Assembly (NCBI RefSeq): GCF_005771565.1
Contig: NZ_VAWA01000014.1
Location: forward strand, 10,443-62,184
DNA: 51,742 nucleotides
Origin: Nesterenkonia sphaerica
GTDB lineage: Bacteria > Actinomycetota > Actinomycetes > Actinomycetales > Micrococcaceae
Direction: 5' to 3'
A model generated the notes under the pieces. That model saw nothing but the letters and a program-made list of their open reading frames with translations, was not told the origin of the DNA and made no database searches. Shown in pieces: positions 35,451-50,082 of the stretch. A program made the position numbers and the translations under genes. Every line of letters begins with the position of its first letter. Position 1 is the stretch's first letter.

Positions 35451-35535
35451 GCCAGGCCGCCACCGGCACACATGTCAGCCTCCTGACGAGTGTTGGTCGA
35501 CTCCGCGTCCAGGTCTGCTGATTAGACTCGGCGGT

Positions 35536-37071
35536 ATGAGCGAGACTCCCCCCCGCGACGGTATGACCTCTTTGAACGATGCCGCGCCGGTCGCCGAGAC
35601 CCCGGCGGACCCTGAGCACGACCCTCAGCCCGAAGAGCCGACGCTCTCGGACCTGCTGACCAGTACTGCGCAGGGAGACCAAGCAGCGTTCTCCGCGTTC
35701 TTCGACGCCACCGCAGACGTGGTCTACGGGCTGGCTCTGATCATGCACGCTGAGTACGACGACGCCCACTCCTCCACTATTGCGGTCTACCGGCACCTCT
35801 GGGATCAGGCTGACGCCCGGGCACGAGACCTTCGCCTGCAGACGCAGGCCTCTCAGTTGCTGACCGAGGAATTCGCCGACACCAGCTCCGAGCACCCCAG
35901 CTACCGGCCCAATGAGTATGAGCTGGTGCTGGAGTGGCTGATTCCACTGACGCACAGGATCTTTGTGGAGCGGTTCCGGGACCGCACCACCACCCCGATA
36001 CCGCTGACCCCGGTGCCGCAGAGCGAAGGGGGCGGCGTCGCCGGTCTCCCGGAGGAAGTGTTGGAGGATCTGCTAGCGCTCTCGGACTCCCAGGCACAGG
36101 CTCTGGCGCTGACGTTCTTAGCTGGCATCCCCCATCAGGAGGTGGCTCAGACGGTCGGCGCGGCAGTGCCCTCAATCAAGTCCCGACTGCGTGATGCCAT
36201 GCGCCGTCTGCACAGCCAGCGGCAGGCCCGGGATACCGGCTCGGATCCGGTCCTCCGCGCCGCGGTGACCAGGGAGGATCTGGAGCGCTCCGGAGGGGTC
36301 AACCGCAACTTCTCCAACCAGATTGCCGCAGACCTGGATAAGGGGCTGCTGGTGGAGCTGGCCGAGCTTTACGCTCTTGACGCGGTCGATGACGCGGAAC
36401 GGGCTCTGCTGGATGAGAAGGCCTTGACCGCCTCAGCCCAGGAGGCGCAGCAGTGGGAGACCCGCGTCCTGGCTGCCCGGCGCACGCTGGCAGAGATCTT
36501 CGCCTCAGACCCGGTGGCGCCGCCCTCGACCCTGCTGCAGGAGCTGCTCGACGGTCTGGGCGGCCAAGAGGTGGGGGTGGGCCTGGTCCAGGACATTTCC
36601 AATCACACTGGGGAGACCGAACGCCACAAACCGGTGCTGAAGAAATGGATGTTCATCGCCGGGTTCATCGCCATTGTGCTGATCGGGGCGGTGGTGATCT
36701 GGCAGTTCACCGCCCCGCGGGACGTGCAGGCCATCGCCGACGCGGACCCGGATGCCTCAGTGGTGGAGGACTATGAGATGGATGGGGGCGGGACCATCGA
36801 CGCCGTGCTCGCCCCGGCCGAGGACGTCGGATACGTGCAGTTCCAGGACGTGCCCAGCACCGAGGACGAGCACACATATCAGCTGTGGCTGCTCCCCACC
36901 GGCGCCGGAGAACCTGGCACGATCGGCAACTTCACCGCGGAGGAGCTTGAGGATGAAGTCGTCGACATCACCAACCTGGCCCAGCACCAGGCGCTGCTGG
37001 TCACCGTGGAGCCGGTGCGCGGGCAGGAGCGTCCGCAGGGCGACATCGTGGCCCAGCTTCCGCTGGACTAG
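35536..37071 (+). CDS. Fusion of ECF-type sigma factor (SigK-like) and RskA-like anti-sigma factor
   Basis: This 511-residue protein joins two parts that are usually separate. Residues 38-100 resemble sigma region 2 (LLTSTAQGDQAAFSAFFDATADVVYGLAL), and 172-228 sigma region 4 (VLEDLLALSDSQAQALALTF, then GAAVPSIKSRLRDAMRRL). Then 270-325 look like the anti-sigma domain of RskA (LAELYALDAVDDAERALLDEKAL) without zinc ligands. A membrane helix follows at 371-390, and an outer RskA-like domain at 398-511 (DASVVEDYEMDGGGT, TYQLWLLPTGAGEPG, LLVTVEPVRG). Region 2 is degenerate (the DAEDLVQE-type helix reads DDAHSSTIAVY), so promoter binding may be weakened. In the classical SigK-RskA pair the anti-sigma holds the sigma at the membrane; here both are in one polypeptide. 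No frameshift is seen. The stop shares CTAG with the facing gene. Confidence 0.85.
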   Translation: MSETPPRDGMTSLNDAAPVAETPADPEHDPQPEEPTLSDLLTSTAQGDQAAFSAFFDATADVVYGLALIMHAEYDDAHSSTIAVYRHLWDQADARARDLRLQTQASQLLTEEFADTSSEHPSYRPNEYELVLEWLIPLTHRIFVERFRDRTTTPIPLTPVPQSEGGGVAGLPEEVLEDLLALSDSQAQALALTFLAGIPHQEVAQTVGAAVPSIKSRLRDAMRRLHSQRQARDTGSDPVLRAAVTREDLERSGGVNRNFSNQIAADLDKGLLVELAELYALDAVDDAERALLDEKALTASAQEAQQWETRVLAARRTLAEIFASDPVAPPSTLLQELLDGLGGQEVGVGLVQDISNHTGETERHKPVLKKWMFIAGFIAIVLIGAVVIWQFTAPRDVQAIADADPDASVVEDYEMDGGGTIDAVLAPAEDVGYVQFQDVPSTEDEHTYQLWLLPTGAGEPGTIGNFTAEELEDEVVDITNLAQHQALLVTVEPVRGQERPQGDIVAQLPLD

Positions 37072-39391: not shown

Positions 39392-39514
39392 GAACGTTTG
39401 CTGCTCCTGCATTTCGGACGGTGGCGGACAGGCCCACCAGATGACGGTGCCGTTCCTACCTGGACAATCCCTTGACCGATGAGCGTCAGCATTGTCTCCT
39501 ATAGACTCCTGCAC

Positions 39515-41002
39515 ATGGTGCCAGCAACCCTGATCACGCTGCCTGTGGCGACCGGTGCTGTGATCGTGGGGCCGCTCATCATCGGCGCGGCAATTTTGGC
39601 GCTCATCGGTGTGGGGGCAGTCTACCTCTCCGGCGGCAGGAAGCGGACCCGACGGTTCCTCCACAGTCCCAGCACATCGGCCCAAGGCAGCATCGAACGC
39701 GACTCCCTGGATCAGAAGTCCACAACGGAGCTCAGACTCCAGGCCGGTGAGCTGCTGGTGGCTGCCGATAATGCCGTGCAGTCCAGCGAACAGGAGCTGC
39801 TGTTCGCCTCTGCTGCCTATGGCGACGAGCAAGTGGCGCCGTTTCACCATGATTTGGCGCGGGCCCGGAAGCACCTGAGTGAATCGTTCAGGCTGCAGCA
39901 GCAGGTCGACTCCGCAAGTGAGTCTGACGACCGCCGCGCCCGGGACCTCTACCGGCAGATCATCAGGAACTGTGAACAAGTCAATGAGACGCTGCAGGCG
40001 CATAAGGACCAATTCGACCAGCTGCGCAGCTTGGAACGGGATCCCACTCCGGCGCTGATGGAGTTGGGAGAACAGGTGGAACGCCTGCGAGCGCGGCGTG
40101 CCCGCGCCGCCTCGGCCCTGCCTGATCTGGGTGAACGCTACAGCGAGGAGGCGCTGCGTCAGTATCGGGATAATCTGCAGCAGGCAGAGTCCAGTTTGGA
40201 CGCTGCAGAAGAGTCGCGGACGCAAGCCTCCGCAGCGGTGGACCGGGCTGATACGGCGCAGGCCGTGGTGGCGCTGCATTCCGGAGAGCAGGCCGCTGCC
40301 GACGCTCAGCGGCTGCTGGAGTCTATGGAGGAGACCGGGGAACGGCTCCGGAAGGCCGCCACGAATATTGAGATCGGTATCGCCCAGACTGAACAGGACC
40401 TGGCCCAGGCTAAAGCCACCTACCAGGCCGGGCAGGCACCTGAGCTGGCCGGTCCTATTGCGGCGGCCGAGAACGCTGTCAGCCGAGCCAAGCGAGCCCT
40501 CGCCTCCGGAGAGCGGATCGACCCGCTTGAACTGTTGCAGCAGCTGGAGCTGGCTCACCGAGAGTTGGACGCGCCGTTGAATTCGGTGCGAGACCGCCAG
40601 GCCCAGGACCGCCGAGCCCGGGAGATGCTGCAGCATGAGCTGCTGAGCGCGCGCCACCAAGTGCAATCCTCCCTGGATTTCTTGCGTTCGCGTCGGTACG
40701 GAGTTTCCTCGACCGCCCGGACCAGGATGGCTGAAGCCGAGCGTTGCCTCACCGAAGCTCAAAGTGCCGGAGAGGCCCAGCCTTCCCGCGCGGTGGAATT
40801 GGCCCAGCAGGCCAAGACGCTGGCGGTGCAGGCTGCGCAGATCGCTGAGCGTGAAGCGGCTACAGCGCAGATGCAGTCCATGGGCGGCGGCTATGGCACC
40901 GGCGGCGGTTTCGGTGGATTCGGTTACCCGGGTCACCACCGTCCCATGGGATACGGGCGCGGGTTCGGCTACGGACGGCGTCGGCGGCGAGGGTTGTTCT
41001 GA
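39515..41002 (+). CDS. Membrane-anchored coiled-coil protein next to pspA
   Basis: The 495-residue protein has a membrane helix (about 8-38; LPVATGAVIVGPLIIGAAILALIG), a long charged helical region (about 55-440) rich in alanine, glutamate and glutamine, and a Gly/Tyr/Arg-rich tail ending RGRGFGYGRRRRRGLF. In many actinobacteria a TPM-domain protein with the same coiled-coil and Gly-rich tail precedes pspA; here the TPM domain is absent. The open frame begins at ATG 39479. ATG 39515 is preferred because TATAGA (39500-39505) lies just upstream as a -10, giving a nearly leaderless message. It probably works with the PspA protein encoded next. No close homologue is known to me. Confidence 0.72.
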   Translation: MVPATLITLPVATGAVIVGPLIIGAAILALIGVGAVYLSGGRKRTRRFLHSPSTSAQGSIERDSLDQKSTTELRLQAGELLVAADNAVQSSEQELLFASAAYGDEQVAPFHHDLARARKHLSESFRLQQQVDSASESDDRRARDLYRQIIRNCEQVNETLQAHKDQFDQLRSLERDPTPALMELGEQVERLRARRARAASALPDLGERYSEEALRQYRDNLQQAESSLDAAEESRTQASAAVDRADTAQAVVALHSGEQAAADAQRLLESMEETGERLRKAATNIEIGIAQTEQDLAQAKATYQAGQAPELAGPIAAAENAVSRAKRALASGERIDPLELLQQLELAHRELDAPLNSVRDRQAQDRRAREMLQHELLSARHQVQSSLDFLRSRRYGVSSTARTRMAEAERCLTEAQSAGEAQPSRAVELAQQAKTLAVQAAQIAEREAATAQMQSMGGGYGTGGGFGGFGYPGHHRPMGYGRGFGYGRRRRRGLF

Positions 41003-47948: not shown

Positions 47949-48147
47949 TCGGAGGTCACGCGAAGAGGGTCTGGGCTCAGAGTTCAGGCCCTCCTTCTGT
48001 ATTGAGGGAGATGAAGCGGGTGAGTAGCAACTCGTTATCGACCTAACGCTGAATCCGCATCGACGACTTGTAAACCGTTCACTATCCGTCTCTCGATAGT
48101 CTGGATCTCCAGCAAGCGTCGACACTGGCACGGGAGTATTTCACAAT

Positions 48148-49716
48148 ATGGAACATAGCTGGCTCTCACTGACCTGGTGGATTCCCCTTCCAGAGTCAAT
48201 CGACCTGCCGGACAGACATACACGCTACGTCACGGCCGTTGTTCACCCCACCCATGCCGCACCTGATGGCAAGCCATTGGATGAAACCGACCCTTTTACT
48301 CAGGTCGATCACGAACTCAGGCTCACTGTTCATCAACGAGAAATTGATGTTTCGATTGCATCCCCTGTGCAGAAGGCCGTCTTCGAAGTCGCCCATGAGG
48401 TTCAGCAGGAAGGTGATACGCAGGCTGAAGGTGTTTCAGGCACCAGAATCAGCTACTTGAGTGTGATCGAGGCGGAGGCTCGTGTCTACGGCATCGATGA
48501 TGTGGATGAGGGCTTAACGACCGATCTGTTTGACATGGCCCTCGACCGAATCCGGCAACTGCAGGAGGGGTTGGCATTAATAACCCAGGACTTGAAGAAG
48601 GACTGGGTGGCGAAAGAGCGTCTCCCAGCGATGCTGCCCTTACGCACTCAGTTCTCAGATTCTGAGGACAATTCGGACGACCTCAGCGTCTTTCTGGTGA
48701 ACCAATTTGCACTAACTGACGTGAGCCCTCCAGAACCGATCCCCGAGTCTAAGTTCGCGGACTTGACGGAGTATCTCTCTATGGATGACCACGAGGCAAG
48801 CTTTTCGACCTATCACCGGTTGCGTTATGAGACGTCGGTCCTTTGCCACCGCCGGGGAGACTTTCGTATGACCGTCATTTCAGCGGCTATCGCGGCCGAG
48901 TCACTCCTCGACGAAATGTTGATGCTTCTGCTCTGGGACGAAGGCAATCAACCGGAAACCGTGGCTTACAAATTCAGTCAGAGCGGCCCAAAGCTCCTGT
49001 CGCGAGTCAAAAGCGAGTATTCGAGACATTTAGGTGGTGAATGGAGCCCTGGGAAGAAGGGGGCGGTTCGTGAATGGCGGGAGAAGATCGCGGAGCCGCG
49101 AAACCAGATCGCTCATGCTGGCGCAATCCCGACCCGACAGCACGCAATAGATGCAGTGCGGGCATTGAACAGCCTTGAACAGTTTCTGGGCCGACGTCTC
49201 AGAACACGAATAGCTCAACGGCCCCGCGCAGCAACGTTGTTCATCGGGGGTCGAACACTTGAAGCTGAAGGCGAAATCACGAACAGACTGAGAACCTTAT
49301 ACAACGATCCGTGGGAGCCGCATTGGGCCTCTACCTTCAGGCGGTGGCGTGATGTCCTCGAATTGGAGGTCGCCAAGACTGAGGGCTCACCGGTCCAACC
49401 AGTCAGAGACCGTGCGGTCGTCGCCGTGGTGGTCGGAGAACAAAGTCTTGAGTTCACACTTCTCGATGAGACAGCCTTGATGGCAGCACGCATTAGCCCC
49501 GTCCCAGACAACCTTGTATCGCAGTATGAGCGTTCGCTGGCGGAGCGGGAGCCAATTACTCCAGAACCCAGGCGAAACGACGTATGCAGGTTAATGCAGG
49601 AGGACTTGGAATCTAAGCGTCGGTTGCAGCTGGTAGGTGGATGGAGATACGCATACAAGCTCATTCCAACGTATAGCGTGATGGCTAATCGGCGCGATCG
49701 AGATGTGCAATCTTGA
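48148..49716 (+). CDS. Unknown protein with HEPN-like motif (accessory region)
   Basis: I do not recognise a named family. The 522-residue protein has no membrane helix. The central-to-C-terminal part (about 220-350) is helical and includes RMTVISAAIAAESLLDEMLMLLLW followed by AEPRNQIAHAGAIPT. The R318-N-Q-I-A-H323 spacing fits the RX4-6H motif of HEPN RNases, which often work in toxin-antitoxin and anti-phage systems. Residues 1-215 may be a sensor; a C-terminal part (about 350-522) has a beta-rich part (FTLLDETALMAARISPV). The GC content is clearly lower than that of the core genes. No antitoxin-like partner (for example a MNT nucleotidyltransferase) lies next to it. ATG 48148 is the first start. 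Confidence 0.62.
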   Translation: MEHSWLSLTWWIPLPESIDLPDRHTRYVTAVVHPTHAAPDGKPLDETDPFTQVDHELRLTVHQREIDVSIASPVQKAVFEVAHEVQQEGDTQAEGVSGTRISYLSVIEAEARVYGIDDVDEGLTTDLFDMALDRIRQLQEGLALITQDLKKDWVAKERLPAMLPLRTQFSDSEDNSDDLSVFLVNQFALTDVSPPEPIPESKFADLTEYLSMDDHEASFSTYHRLRYETSVLCHRRGDFRMTVISAAIAAESLLDEMLMLLLWDEGNQPETVAYKFSQSGPKLLSRVKSEYSRHLGGEWSPGKKGAVREWREKIAEPRNQIAHAGAIPTRQHAIDAVRALNSLEQFLGRRLRTRIAQRPRAATLFIGGRTLEAEGEITNRLRTLYNDPWEPHWASTFRRWRDVLELEVAKTEGSPVQPVRDRAVVAVVVGEQSLEFTLLDETALMAARISPVPDNLVSQYERSLAEREPITPEPRRNDVCRLMQEDLESKRRLQLVGGWRYAYKLIPTYSVMANRRDRDVQS

Positions 49717-49791
49717 AGGCTACTCTCAGTTCTTACCTACTGACTCGCGACTGTGATTCCAGAGCTTCCGAATCGCGGGCGCCCGCATGTC

Positions 49792-50082
49792 TCAGCTGAC
49801 CAAGCTAGCCCTGACCCCGGCGATGAACTCATCTACCAGTTCACGAGTGTGCATGACCCGCACATCTGCCCCGCGAGCCCGCGTACGATCGATCTGAACC
49901 TTCTGCAGGGAACTAAGCCGGCCATTTTTCGCCTTGAGCTCCACGAAGACGGTGCGCTCATTGATGAGCACAATCCGGTCCGGCACGCCATTGACCCCAG
50001 AAGAGAATTTGAAGCAGATTCCGTCAAGATCACTGATCCGATCCCTCAGGTACTGCTCGACGTGATTCTCAGCTTTTCCCAT
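49792..50082 (-). CDS. VRR-NUC domain protein
   Basis: The 96-residue protein is a complete small PD-(D/E)XK fold of the VRR-NUC type: a helix (NHVEQYLRDRI), then GVNGVPDRIVLI (Asp 35 of PD) and VFVELKAKNGRLSSLQ (Glu 48, Lys 50, Gln 60). These small proteins are common in phages and mobile elements and may resolve branched DNA. It is transcribed with the relaxase, which lies 12 bases upstream on the same strand. No helicase partner is present. Confidence 0.8.
   Translation of the reverse strand: MGKAENHVEQYLRDRISDLDGICFKFSSGVNGVPDRIVLINERTVFVELKAKNGRLSSLQKVQIDRTRARGADVRVMHTRELVDEFIAGVRASLVS

Follow-up and report, generated by a model that had tools for sequence, protein, structure and literature searches.

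The SigK–RskA system of Mycobacterium tuberculosis (ECF19; PDB 4nqw) is encoded by two genes, and its anti-sigma factor is built from an RskA_N domain, a membrane helix and an RskA_C domain. The sigma factor carries TQE in region 2.2 and AHRRAVDRVR in region 2.4. According to the excerpted text of PMC4598750, the region 2.2 helix binds the β′ coiled coil of RNA polymerase, and a portion of PMC7406223 describes regions 2.1–2.2 as also contacting helix 4 of the anti-sigma factor; our literature search on the region 2.2 residues yielded no paper. The mpt70 and mpt83 genes are targets of SigK (PMC7509140, extract).

Single-chain arrangements have also been described. IutY of Pseudomonas putida (ECF243), a protein of iron-siderophore cell-surface signalling, combines an ECF sigma factor, a membrane segment and an outer regulatory domain in one polypeptide and functions as a sigma factor after cleavage; excerpts of PMC5411451 attribute its activation to Prc and RseP. 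Extracts of PMC8999054 and PMC5826349 expect the actinobacterial ECF48, ECF52 and ECF53 proteins (e.g. SCO4117), in which an ECF sigma factor is joined to anti-sigma-like and membrane parts, to operate like IutY. In the alphaproteobacterial general stress response, the sigma-like domain of PhyR is described as an ECF fold that is bound by an anti-sigma factor as a mimic and has no sigma activity. Here we describe a gene of Nesterenkonia sphaerica in which a SigK-like sigma factor and an RskA-like anti-sigma factor form a single chain.

Architecture of the fused gene

The window, by which we mean the whole stretch of 51,742 nucleotides that was analysed, contains a 511-codon open reading frame on the forward strand that runs without interruption from an ATG at 35536 to a TAG ending at 37071. 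Four parts follow one another along the 511-residue chain: a SigK-like sigma part, an anti-sigma domain that resembles RskA, a single membrane helix and an outer domain of the RskA kind. The gene and its upstream region contain the following features (L numbers denote loci, G numbers genomes and g numbers genera).

35490–35498, + strand: GTGTTGGTC element upstream of the fused gene, after the TrmL-like gene; also upstream in close relatives (L001, L080, L081, L099, L102, L083 and L103)
35523–35528, + strand: −10-like TAGACT, 7 bases 5′ of the ATG
35536–37071, + strand: whole gene, single-chain SigK-like sigma/RskA-like anti-sigma membrane protein, 511 aa
35644–35820, + strand: sigma region 2.1–2.2 part, residues 37–95, aligned to SigK 4nqw_A with profile A2; without a Pfam Sigma70_r2 match
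35755–35805, + strand: region 2.2 helix, residues 74–90, without the QE pair (here I82, A83) of the β′ clamp-binding surface
35821–35916, + strand: insertion of about 20–30 residues between regions 2.2 and 2.3, within residues 96–127; genus g1 only
35917–35985, + strand: sigma region 2.3–2.4 helix, residues 128–150, unlike split sigmas at 131, 142, 143 and 145
36052–36225, + strand: sigma region 4, residues 173–230, with HTH motif KSRLRD
36226–36306, + strand: sigma/anti-sigma junction, residues 231–257, with DPVLRAAVT at residues 237–245
36307–36558, + strand: RskA-like anti-sigma domain, residues 258–341 (RskA_N 272–319)
36565–36582, + strand: juxtamembrane motif QEVGVG, residues 344–349
36643–36708, + strand: transmembrane helix, residues 370–391, from a hydrophobic stretch and the model helix
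36709–37050, + strand: extracytoplasmic RskA_C domain, residues 392–505

A TAGACT, TAAACT, TACACT or TAGAAT box was present just 5′ of a start codon in 13 of the 18 Nesterenkonia/Garicola stretches printed. Judging from this −10-like box, the fused gene likely has a leaderless promoter of the housekeeping type; the GTGTTGGTC element at 35490–35498 is too distant from the box to serve as its −35.

A previous interpretation made from the sequence alone (the sequence-only reading) had proposed that an ECF sigma factor is fused here to an RskA-like anti-sigma factor, and family searches bore this out. Pfam matched RskA_C (E 1.5e-14, residues 378–503), RskA_N (E 8.3e-10, residues 272–319) and Sigma70_r4_2 (E 1.1e-5, residues 179–225; 25.4 bits against a cut-off of 25.7), with borders within a few residues of those that had been given from the sequence alone. 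Sigma70_r4 reached 24.5 bits against a cut-off of 24.1, and the region 4 HTH of a SigK-type sigma factor is present. No Sigma70_r2 match was listed by Pfam at E up to 10, a null that has to be read in light of the HMMER filters, which discard most matches with E above about 0.1. The best sigma match in NCBIfam was the SigK model (E 1.2e-21; 77 bits against a cut-off of 226) and the best match overall was an anti-sigma model (E 4.8e-24), both below their curated cut-offs. When phmmer was run against PDB chains, SigK 4nqw_A (4.1e-12) and RskA 4nqw_B (5.2e-6) were recovered, and region 2 of SigK (4nqw_A) was also aligned, with 42.5 bits, once a 34-sequence profile (A2) was used. SigK is the nearest sequence family of the sigma part by both NCBIfam and PDB chains. 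Every A2 member contains RskA_C (34/34) and all but one contain RskA_N (33/34) at E <= 1. The complete set of RskA parts (RskA_N, one membrane helix and RskA_C) is found in the window protein; the usual RskA trait of a polypeptide of its own beside its sigma factor is missing, as the two form one frame in 30/30 genomes of the genus.

Structure prediction, which the sequence-only reading had proposed as a check, recovered the sigma fold. The AlphaFold model of the window protein had a mean pLDDT of 81.1 and a pTM of 0.60, with most of the sigma 2, sigma 4 and anti-sigma helices above 90, and contained a predicted long helix (residues 92–113) at the insertion peculiar to g1. Its best Foldseek match was SigK 4nqw_A (E 1.4e-4, TM 0.75 by target, rmsd 8.6); RskA 4nqw_B matched with a TM of 0.83 and 1.9 Å rmsd but an E of only 0.26. 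A model of the fused protein from Enteractinococcus (pLDDT 80.8) also matched SigK (TM 0.76, E 1.7e-4), and RskA 4nqw_B was absent from the 50 Foldseek matches listed for it. The sigma fold is therefore predicted to be kept in both the window protein and the divergent Enteractinococcus protein. The Foldseek matches to the separate chains lead us to predict that the sigma half binds its own anti-sigma domain in cis, in the manner of SigK/RskA.

Distribution and genomic context

The 395 genomes of the family yielded a match at 1e-10 in 209. Fused frames were found in at least six genera (g1, g2, g4, g35, g37 and g42), a number from which further genera may be missing as few candidates were scored per genome. 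In the Nesterenkonia group, all 30 genomes, the window genome included, contain a stop-free frame at 54–100% identity, and therefore the fusion is neither chance nor a lone artefact. A stop codon between two separate genes in related strains had been named as evidence that would undo the fusion; no stop lies inside the match in the 29 other genomes of the genus. As to whether the fusion is conserved or unique, it is conserved in this genus and in five more Micrococcaceae genera.

Our fused set comprised 56 proteins (30 from g1, the window genome's genus, 8 each from g4, g42 and g35, and 1 each from g2 and g37). One g35 locus, L064 of genome G230, was dropped because of Ns inside the sigma part, and the fused protein of G198 (g35) also lies outside the 56. 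The split set comprised 18 pairs after L036 (the window genome's other pair), L037, and L038 and L039 (other ECFs) had been dropped. A separate genome scan, in which a single DNA pattern from the region 4 HTH served as the query, gave 34 loci (L080–L113), 24 of them from Nesterenkonia or Garicola and the other 10 from Citricoccus, Micrococcus terreus, another Micrococcus, Auritidibacter, Yaniella, Enteractinococcus and a further Micrococcaceae bacterium. As the motif is present in these loci by selection, the scan is blind to members that have lost the HTH, and g35 was missed. These loci mostly overlap the genus genomes and were used for upstream and neighbour views, for alignments A2 and A3 (the window protein plus 33 of the loci, L101 being left out) and for one dN/dS sequence (L099).

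The fused gene is flanked on one side by a gene for a SpoU-type methylase (TrmL-like) and on the other by a convergent PIG-L deacetylase gene, beyond which, in the window, lies an HtrA-like trypsin/PDZ gene. The TrmL-like gene was present in the flank of 56/56 fused and 13/18 split loci, and PIG-L in 54/56 fused and 9/18 split loci, counts that come from flanks of unequal length. When longer flanks were inspected, 9/9 split loci had the anti-sigma gene followed by PIG-L and then, after about 2 kb, by HtrA and a PspA-like gene, with extra DNA separating the anti-sigma gene from PIG-L in some of the nine. Because sister genera hold two genes at the same locus (13/18 by the TrmL-like gene), the fused gene is the orthologue of a normal two-gene SigK-like/RskA-like pair whose chromosomal locus is unchanged. 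The two genes in sister genera represent the sister or ancestral state and no sequencing error. Since HtrA was found at all nine split loci with longer flanks, we rejected the idea that this neighbour is special to the fused genera. Relatives of a 507-aa open reading frame at 39479–41002 of the window, which has no Pfam match at E 0.001, occur near HtrA in many long-flank fused loci and in all nine split loci examined. Elsewhere in the window, G+C falls to as low as 0.55 at 48001–50000, against 0.61–0.68 in the remainder.

At 4 of the 12 split junctions printed (L065–L068), the anti-sigma frame follows the sigma stop in frame, so that the loss of one stop codon would fuse the two genes; in the other eight the frames differ. 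The split sequences formed a single clade in both trees (one of 18 pairs; one with 9 split loci, in which 64/69 loci were included, those with both TrmL and PIG-L), and thus a single fusion event is the simplest reading, two fusions or one fission being the other possible histories. Both trees were midpoint-rooted, and rooted in this way the fused Nesterenkonia sequences and the other fused genera are not sister groups; the support values, read off after re-rooting, could belong to adjacent branches. A 469-aa frame in another family (G057, L037) that looked like a second fusion was rejected, as Pfam found only the anti-sigma half and the part before it reads as out-of-frame sequence.

Sequence changes in the sigma part

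Region 2.2 of the 18 split sigmas is close to SEDTTQEVYLQVW, with Q and E each present in 18/18. Among the fused proteins, Q occurs in 2/56 and E in 1/56, and the QE pair through which a SigK-type sigma factor binds the clamp is missing from all 56. Eight fused proteins, all from g42, have an acidic D at the E position. Similarly, P131, R142 and A143 are each present in 18/18 split and 0/56 fused proteins (8 of the latter gapped at 143), and position 145 is D in the split sigmas, with D in 1/56 and the similar E in 31/56 of the fused proteins. The sequence-only reading had remarked that the region 2 helix was poor in conserved residues, and on this point it was correct.

Ordinary sigma factors of the same genomes served for comparison. 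Other region 2 matches in six fused genomes keep the Q in 22/22 visible cases and QE or QD in 20/22; the 22 are what remained of 24 after removal of L140, a fused protein, and L141, which starts after region 2.2, and the set leans towards ordinary sigmas, since the region 2 model was used to find it. All five solved ECF sigmas that we aligned also keep the region 2.2 Q. The window genome itself encodes a separate SigK-like protein that has LQEVF and matches Pfam region 2 at 3.5e-14, whereas its fused protein has no such match.

The loss of region 2 is graded, since some fused proteins retain weak Sigma70_r2 matches; only the absence of QE is common to all 56. Such matches were seen in the Citricoccus group (L042 at 1.7e-4; G084 at 23.5 bits, counted as above the cut-off of the family together with neighbouring matches in frame, 25.3 against 24) and, at E <= 1, in 6/34 A2 members. 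The KSRxRD motif of the region 4 HTH is kept in 48/56 fused proteins and lost in the 8 g35 proteins. RskA_N and region 4 are weak or undetected in some fused genera, where RskA_C remains strong, and so the sigma/anti-sigma contact itself may be lost there.

Two motifs accompany the fusion. DPxLxxxVT at the junction (36244–36270 in the window) is common to five fused genera and mostly absent from the sixth (g35); it could be a processing or docking site. The juxtamembrane motif Q(E/D/N)xG is present in most fused proteins and is unconserved in split RskA.

Selective constraint

In 13 within-genus pairs, dN/dS was 0.054 for region 2, 0.015 for regions 2.3–2.4, 0.046 for region 4 and 0.052 for the anti-sigma domain, and rose to 0.118 for RskA_C, 0.193 for the insertion and 0.485 for the N-terminal tail. 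The sigma part is thus under strong purifying selection within the genus and is not decaying. Between genera, identity in fused versus split proteins was 0.45 versus 0.62 for region 2, 0.33 versus 0.82 for regions 2.3–2.4, 0.40 versus 0.84 for region 4, 0.35 versus 0.45 for the anti-sigma domain and 0.38 versus 0.50 for RskA_C. The fused sigma part has thus lost the extra constraint that the split one shows between genera, while a constraint acts within the genus. An earlier suggestion that the sigma part has degenerated thus holds for the RNA polymerase and −10 surface, but not in the sense of decay.

Other RskA proteins in the same genomes

A search for RskA_C was made in 48 of the 56 fused genomes (G005, G007, G016, G024, G025, G171, G185 and G193 were left out). 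The fused protein was the sole RskA_C match found in 20/48, and 28/48 had at least one further match. The window genome contains, besides the fused gene, a separate and ordinary-looking SigK-like/RskA pair on contig C4 (39882–41079; L036), which is a different copy, and a third RskA_C protein in a 293-aa frame on C75 (56009–56371; L117). One M50 site-2 protease was found in this genome.

We also searched for fasciclin, which we take to be the family of the SigK target genes mpt70 and mpt83. It was found in 0/14 tested genomes in which the fused protein is the sole RskA_C match, in 9/12 fused genomes with another RskA_C match and in 11/16 split genomes tested. Within the genus, 6/13 tested genomes had fasciclin, in all six cases 1.1–1.2 kb from an RskA_C stretch of a separate frame and away from the fused gene; the window genome had no match despite its separate SigK-like/RskA pair. 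We therefore rejected, as unsupported, the fasciclin regulon of SigK as the target of the fused protein.

Excerpts of PMC8965627 report that an 'anti-sigma K factor (RskA)' of Nesterenkonia sp. Act20 was lowered under UV and then recovered. The Act20 genome carries the fused gene (L089), which may be the one that encodes the UV-responsive 'RskA'.

Discussion

We lean, without great confidence, towards a membrane sensor with one helix, in which a closed sigma mimic, and not a sigma factor that can be released, makes up the cytoplasmic half. The sigma half would be locked to its anti-sigma domain as a mimic and would be no working initiation factor, the two together forming the cytoplasmic half of the sensor, and the outer RskA_C domain would receive the signal. 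This signal might alter the closed unit, or the single site-2 protease found in the genome might set it free as a fragment, with output by protein contact, or by DNA contact where the region 4 HTH persists, and not by sigma activity. The region 2.2 surface, ordinarily used for the β′ clamp or anti-sigma helix 4, lacks residues that all 18 split relatives keep, and we infer from the missing region 2 surface residues that RNA polymerase binding has been lost. We favour the mimic because the QE pair and P131, R142 and A143 are absent from all fused proteins and invariant in the split ones, because other sigma factors of six fused genomes keep the Q, and because the sigma part is under strong selection within the genus but has lost its special constraint between genera. 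The kept fold, the same locus and the new motifs found only in the fused proteins point the same way, as do the 20/48 genomes in which no other RskA_C protein was found (with no fasciclin match in the 14 of them tested) and the one M50 protease of the window genome. Of the properties of a sigma mimic, the fold (in the model) and the loss of surface residues were seen, and anti-sigma binding is predicted.

Several findings count against the mimic. Strong selection and an HTH in most fused proteins would equally fit an active sigma factor, and a sigma that binds the core weakly or atypically could still function, as the D in g42 and the E at position 145 in 31 proteins could suggest; the weak Sigma70_r2 matches of the Citricoccus group point the same way. 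Somewhat more doubtfully, we propose an evolutionary account in which the sigma part, after fusion, gave up RNA polymerase binding and −10 recognition, re-tuned its surface (Q to V, L, T or I) to its own anti-sigma domain and, in six or more genera of the Micrococcaceae, came to serve as the conserved inner half of a membrane sensor of a new kind.

The main rival is a divergent but active sigma factor, which its own anti-sigma domain would inhibit in cis until intramembrane proteolysis and cytoplasmic trimming set it free, as in IutY. The window protein shares the IutY layout, a single chain that carries a sigma factor, a membrane helix and a regulatory domain outside, and precedents exist in IutY with Prc and RseP and, by prediction, in ECF48, ECF52 and ECF53. 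The HTH motif, the strong purifying selection and the residual Sigma70_r2 matches would all suit a working sigma factor, as would the site-2 protease and the HtrA-like trypsin/PDZ gene, which adjoins PIG-L here and is some 2 kb more distant at split loci. However, the QE pair and the region 2.3–2.4 residues are gone in all six fused genera. Moreover, a sigma part cut loose within the membrane would still be joined covalently to the anti-sigma domain, so that a further cut would be needed. Release of a working sigma factor by cytoplasmic proteolysis, as the sequence-only reading had envisaged, is weakened because the QE pair is absent from every fused protein, and we consider this rival unlikely, although a serious one.

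We regard as improbable a relic of which the membrane helix and RskA_C alone are still important, its sigma/anti-sigma part being an inert cytoplasmic plug without output. RskA_N and region 4 do fade in some genera while RskA_C stays strong, and between fused genera sigma identity is down to the level of RskA_C. Within the genus, however, the sigma and anti-sigma parts are more constrained than RskA_C, and the fold of the Enteractinococcus protein is kept at high confidence in the model. A decoy role, another earlier suggestion, is very hard to credit as an action in trans on a separate SigK/RskA pair of the same cell and was rejected as a general role. The window genome does have such a pair and 28/48 genomes have a further RskA_C match, but the fused protein cannot generally be a decoy for another RskA_C protein, since the search, which covered RskA_C-bearing proteins, found none other in 20/48 genomes.

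Compared with known systems, the fused protein is like SigK–RskA of M. tuberculosis in its sigma and anti-sigma families, its predicted fold and the order of RskA_N, membrane helix and RskA_C, and differs in being one chain without QE. We found no description of a single-chain SigK–RskA protein in the literature, although it may be listed in ECF classifications (Casas-Pastor 2021; Pinto and Mascher). Single-chain sigma/anti-sigma proteins are a known kind, and what would be new here is the RskA type and the loss of the sigma surface in six genera. IutY shares the one-polypeptide layout and differs in its iron-siderophore signalling and its function as a sigma factor after cleavage. To our knowledge, IutY has no RskA domain. 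The ECF48, ECF52 and ECF53 proteins, which have a C-terminal zinc finger and membrane helices, differ in their zinc-finger anti-sigma domain and, in ECF52, in a proline-rich and carbohydrate-binding tail, whereas the fused protein has an RskA_N without such a zinc match, plus RskA_C. PhyR differs in having a response-regulator part, in acting in trans on NepR and in lacking a membrane part.

Known single-chain sigma/anti-sigma proteins have been shown or are expected to free a working sigma factor. In each of the six genera described here, fusion coincides with loss of the RNA polymerase surface, and the split counterpart at the locus provides a built-in control. The locus thus offers a natural way of testing if a sigma fold may be converted into a non-transcribing signalling part outside alphaproteobacterial PhyR, and it suggests caution in annotating such proteins plainly as ECF19 sigma factors or RskA. 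If the sigma part has indeed turned sensor, that sensor would be the sole RskA-type protein found in many fused genomes.
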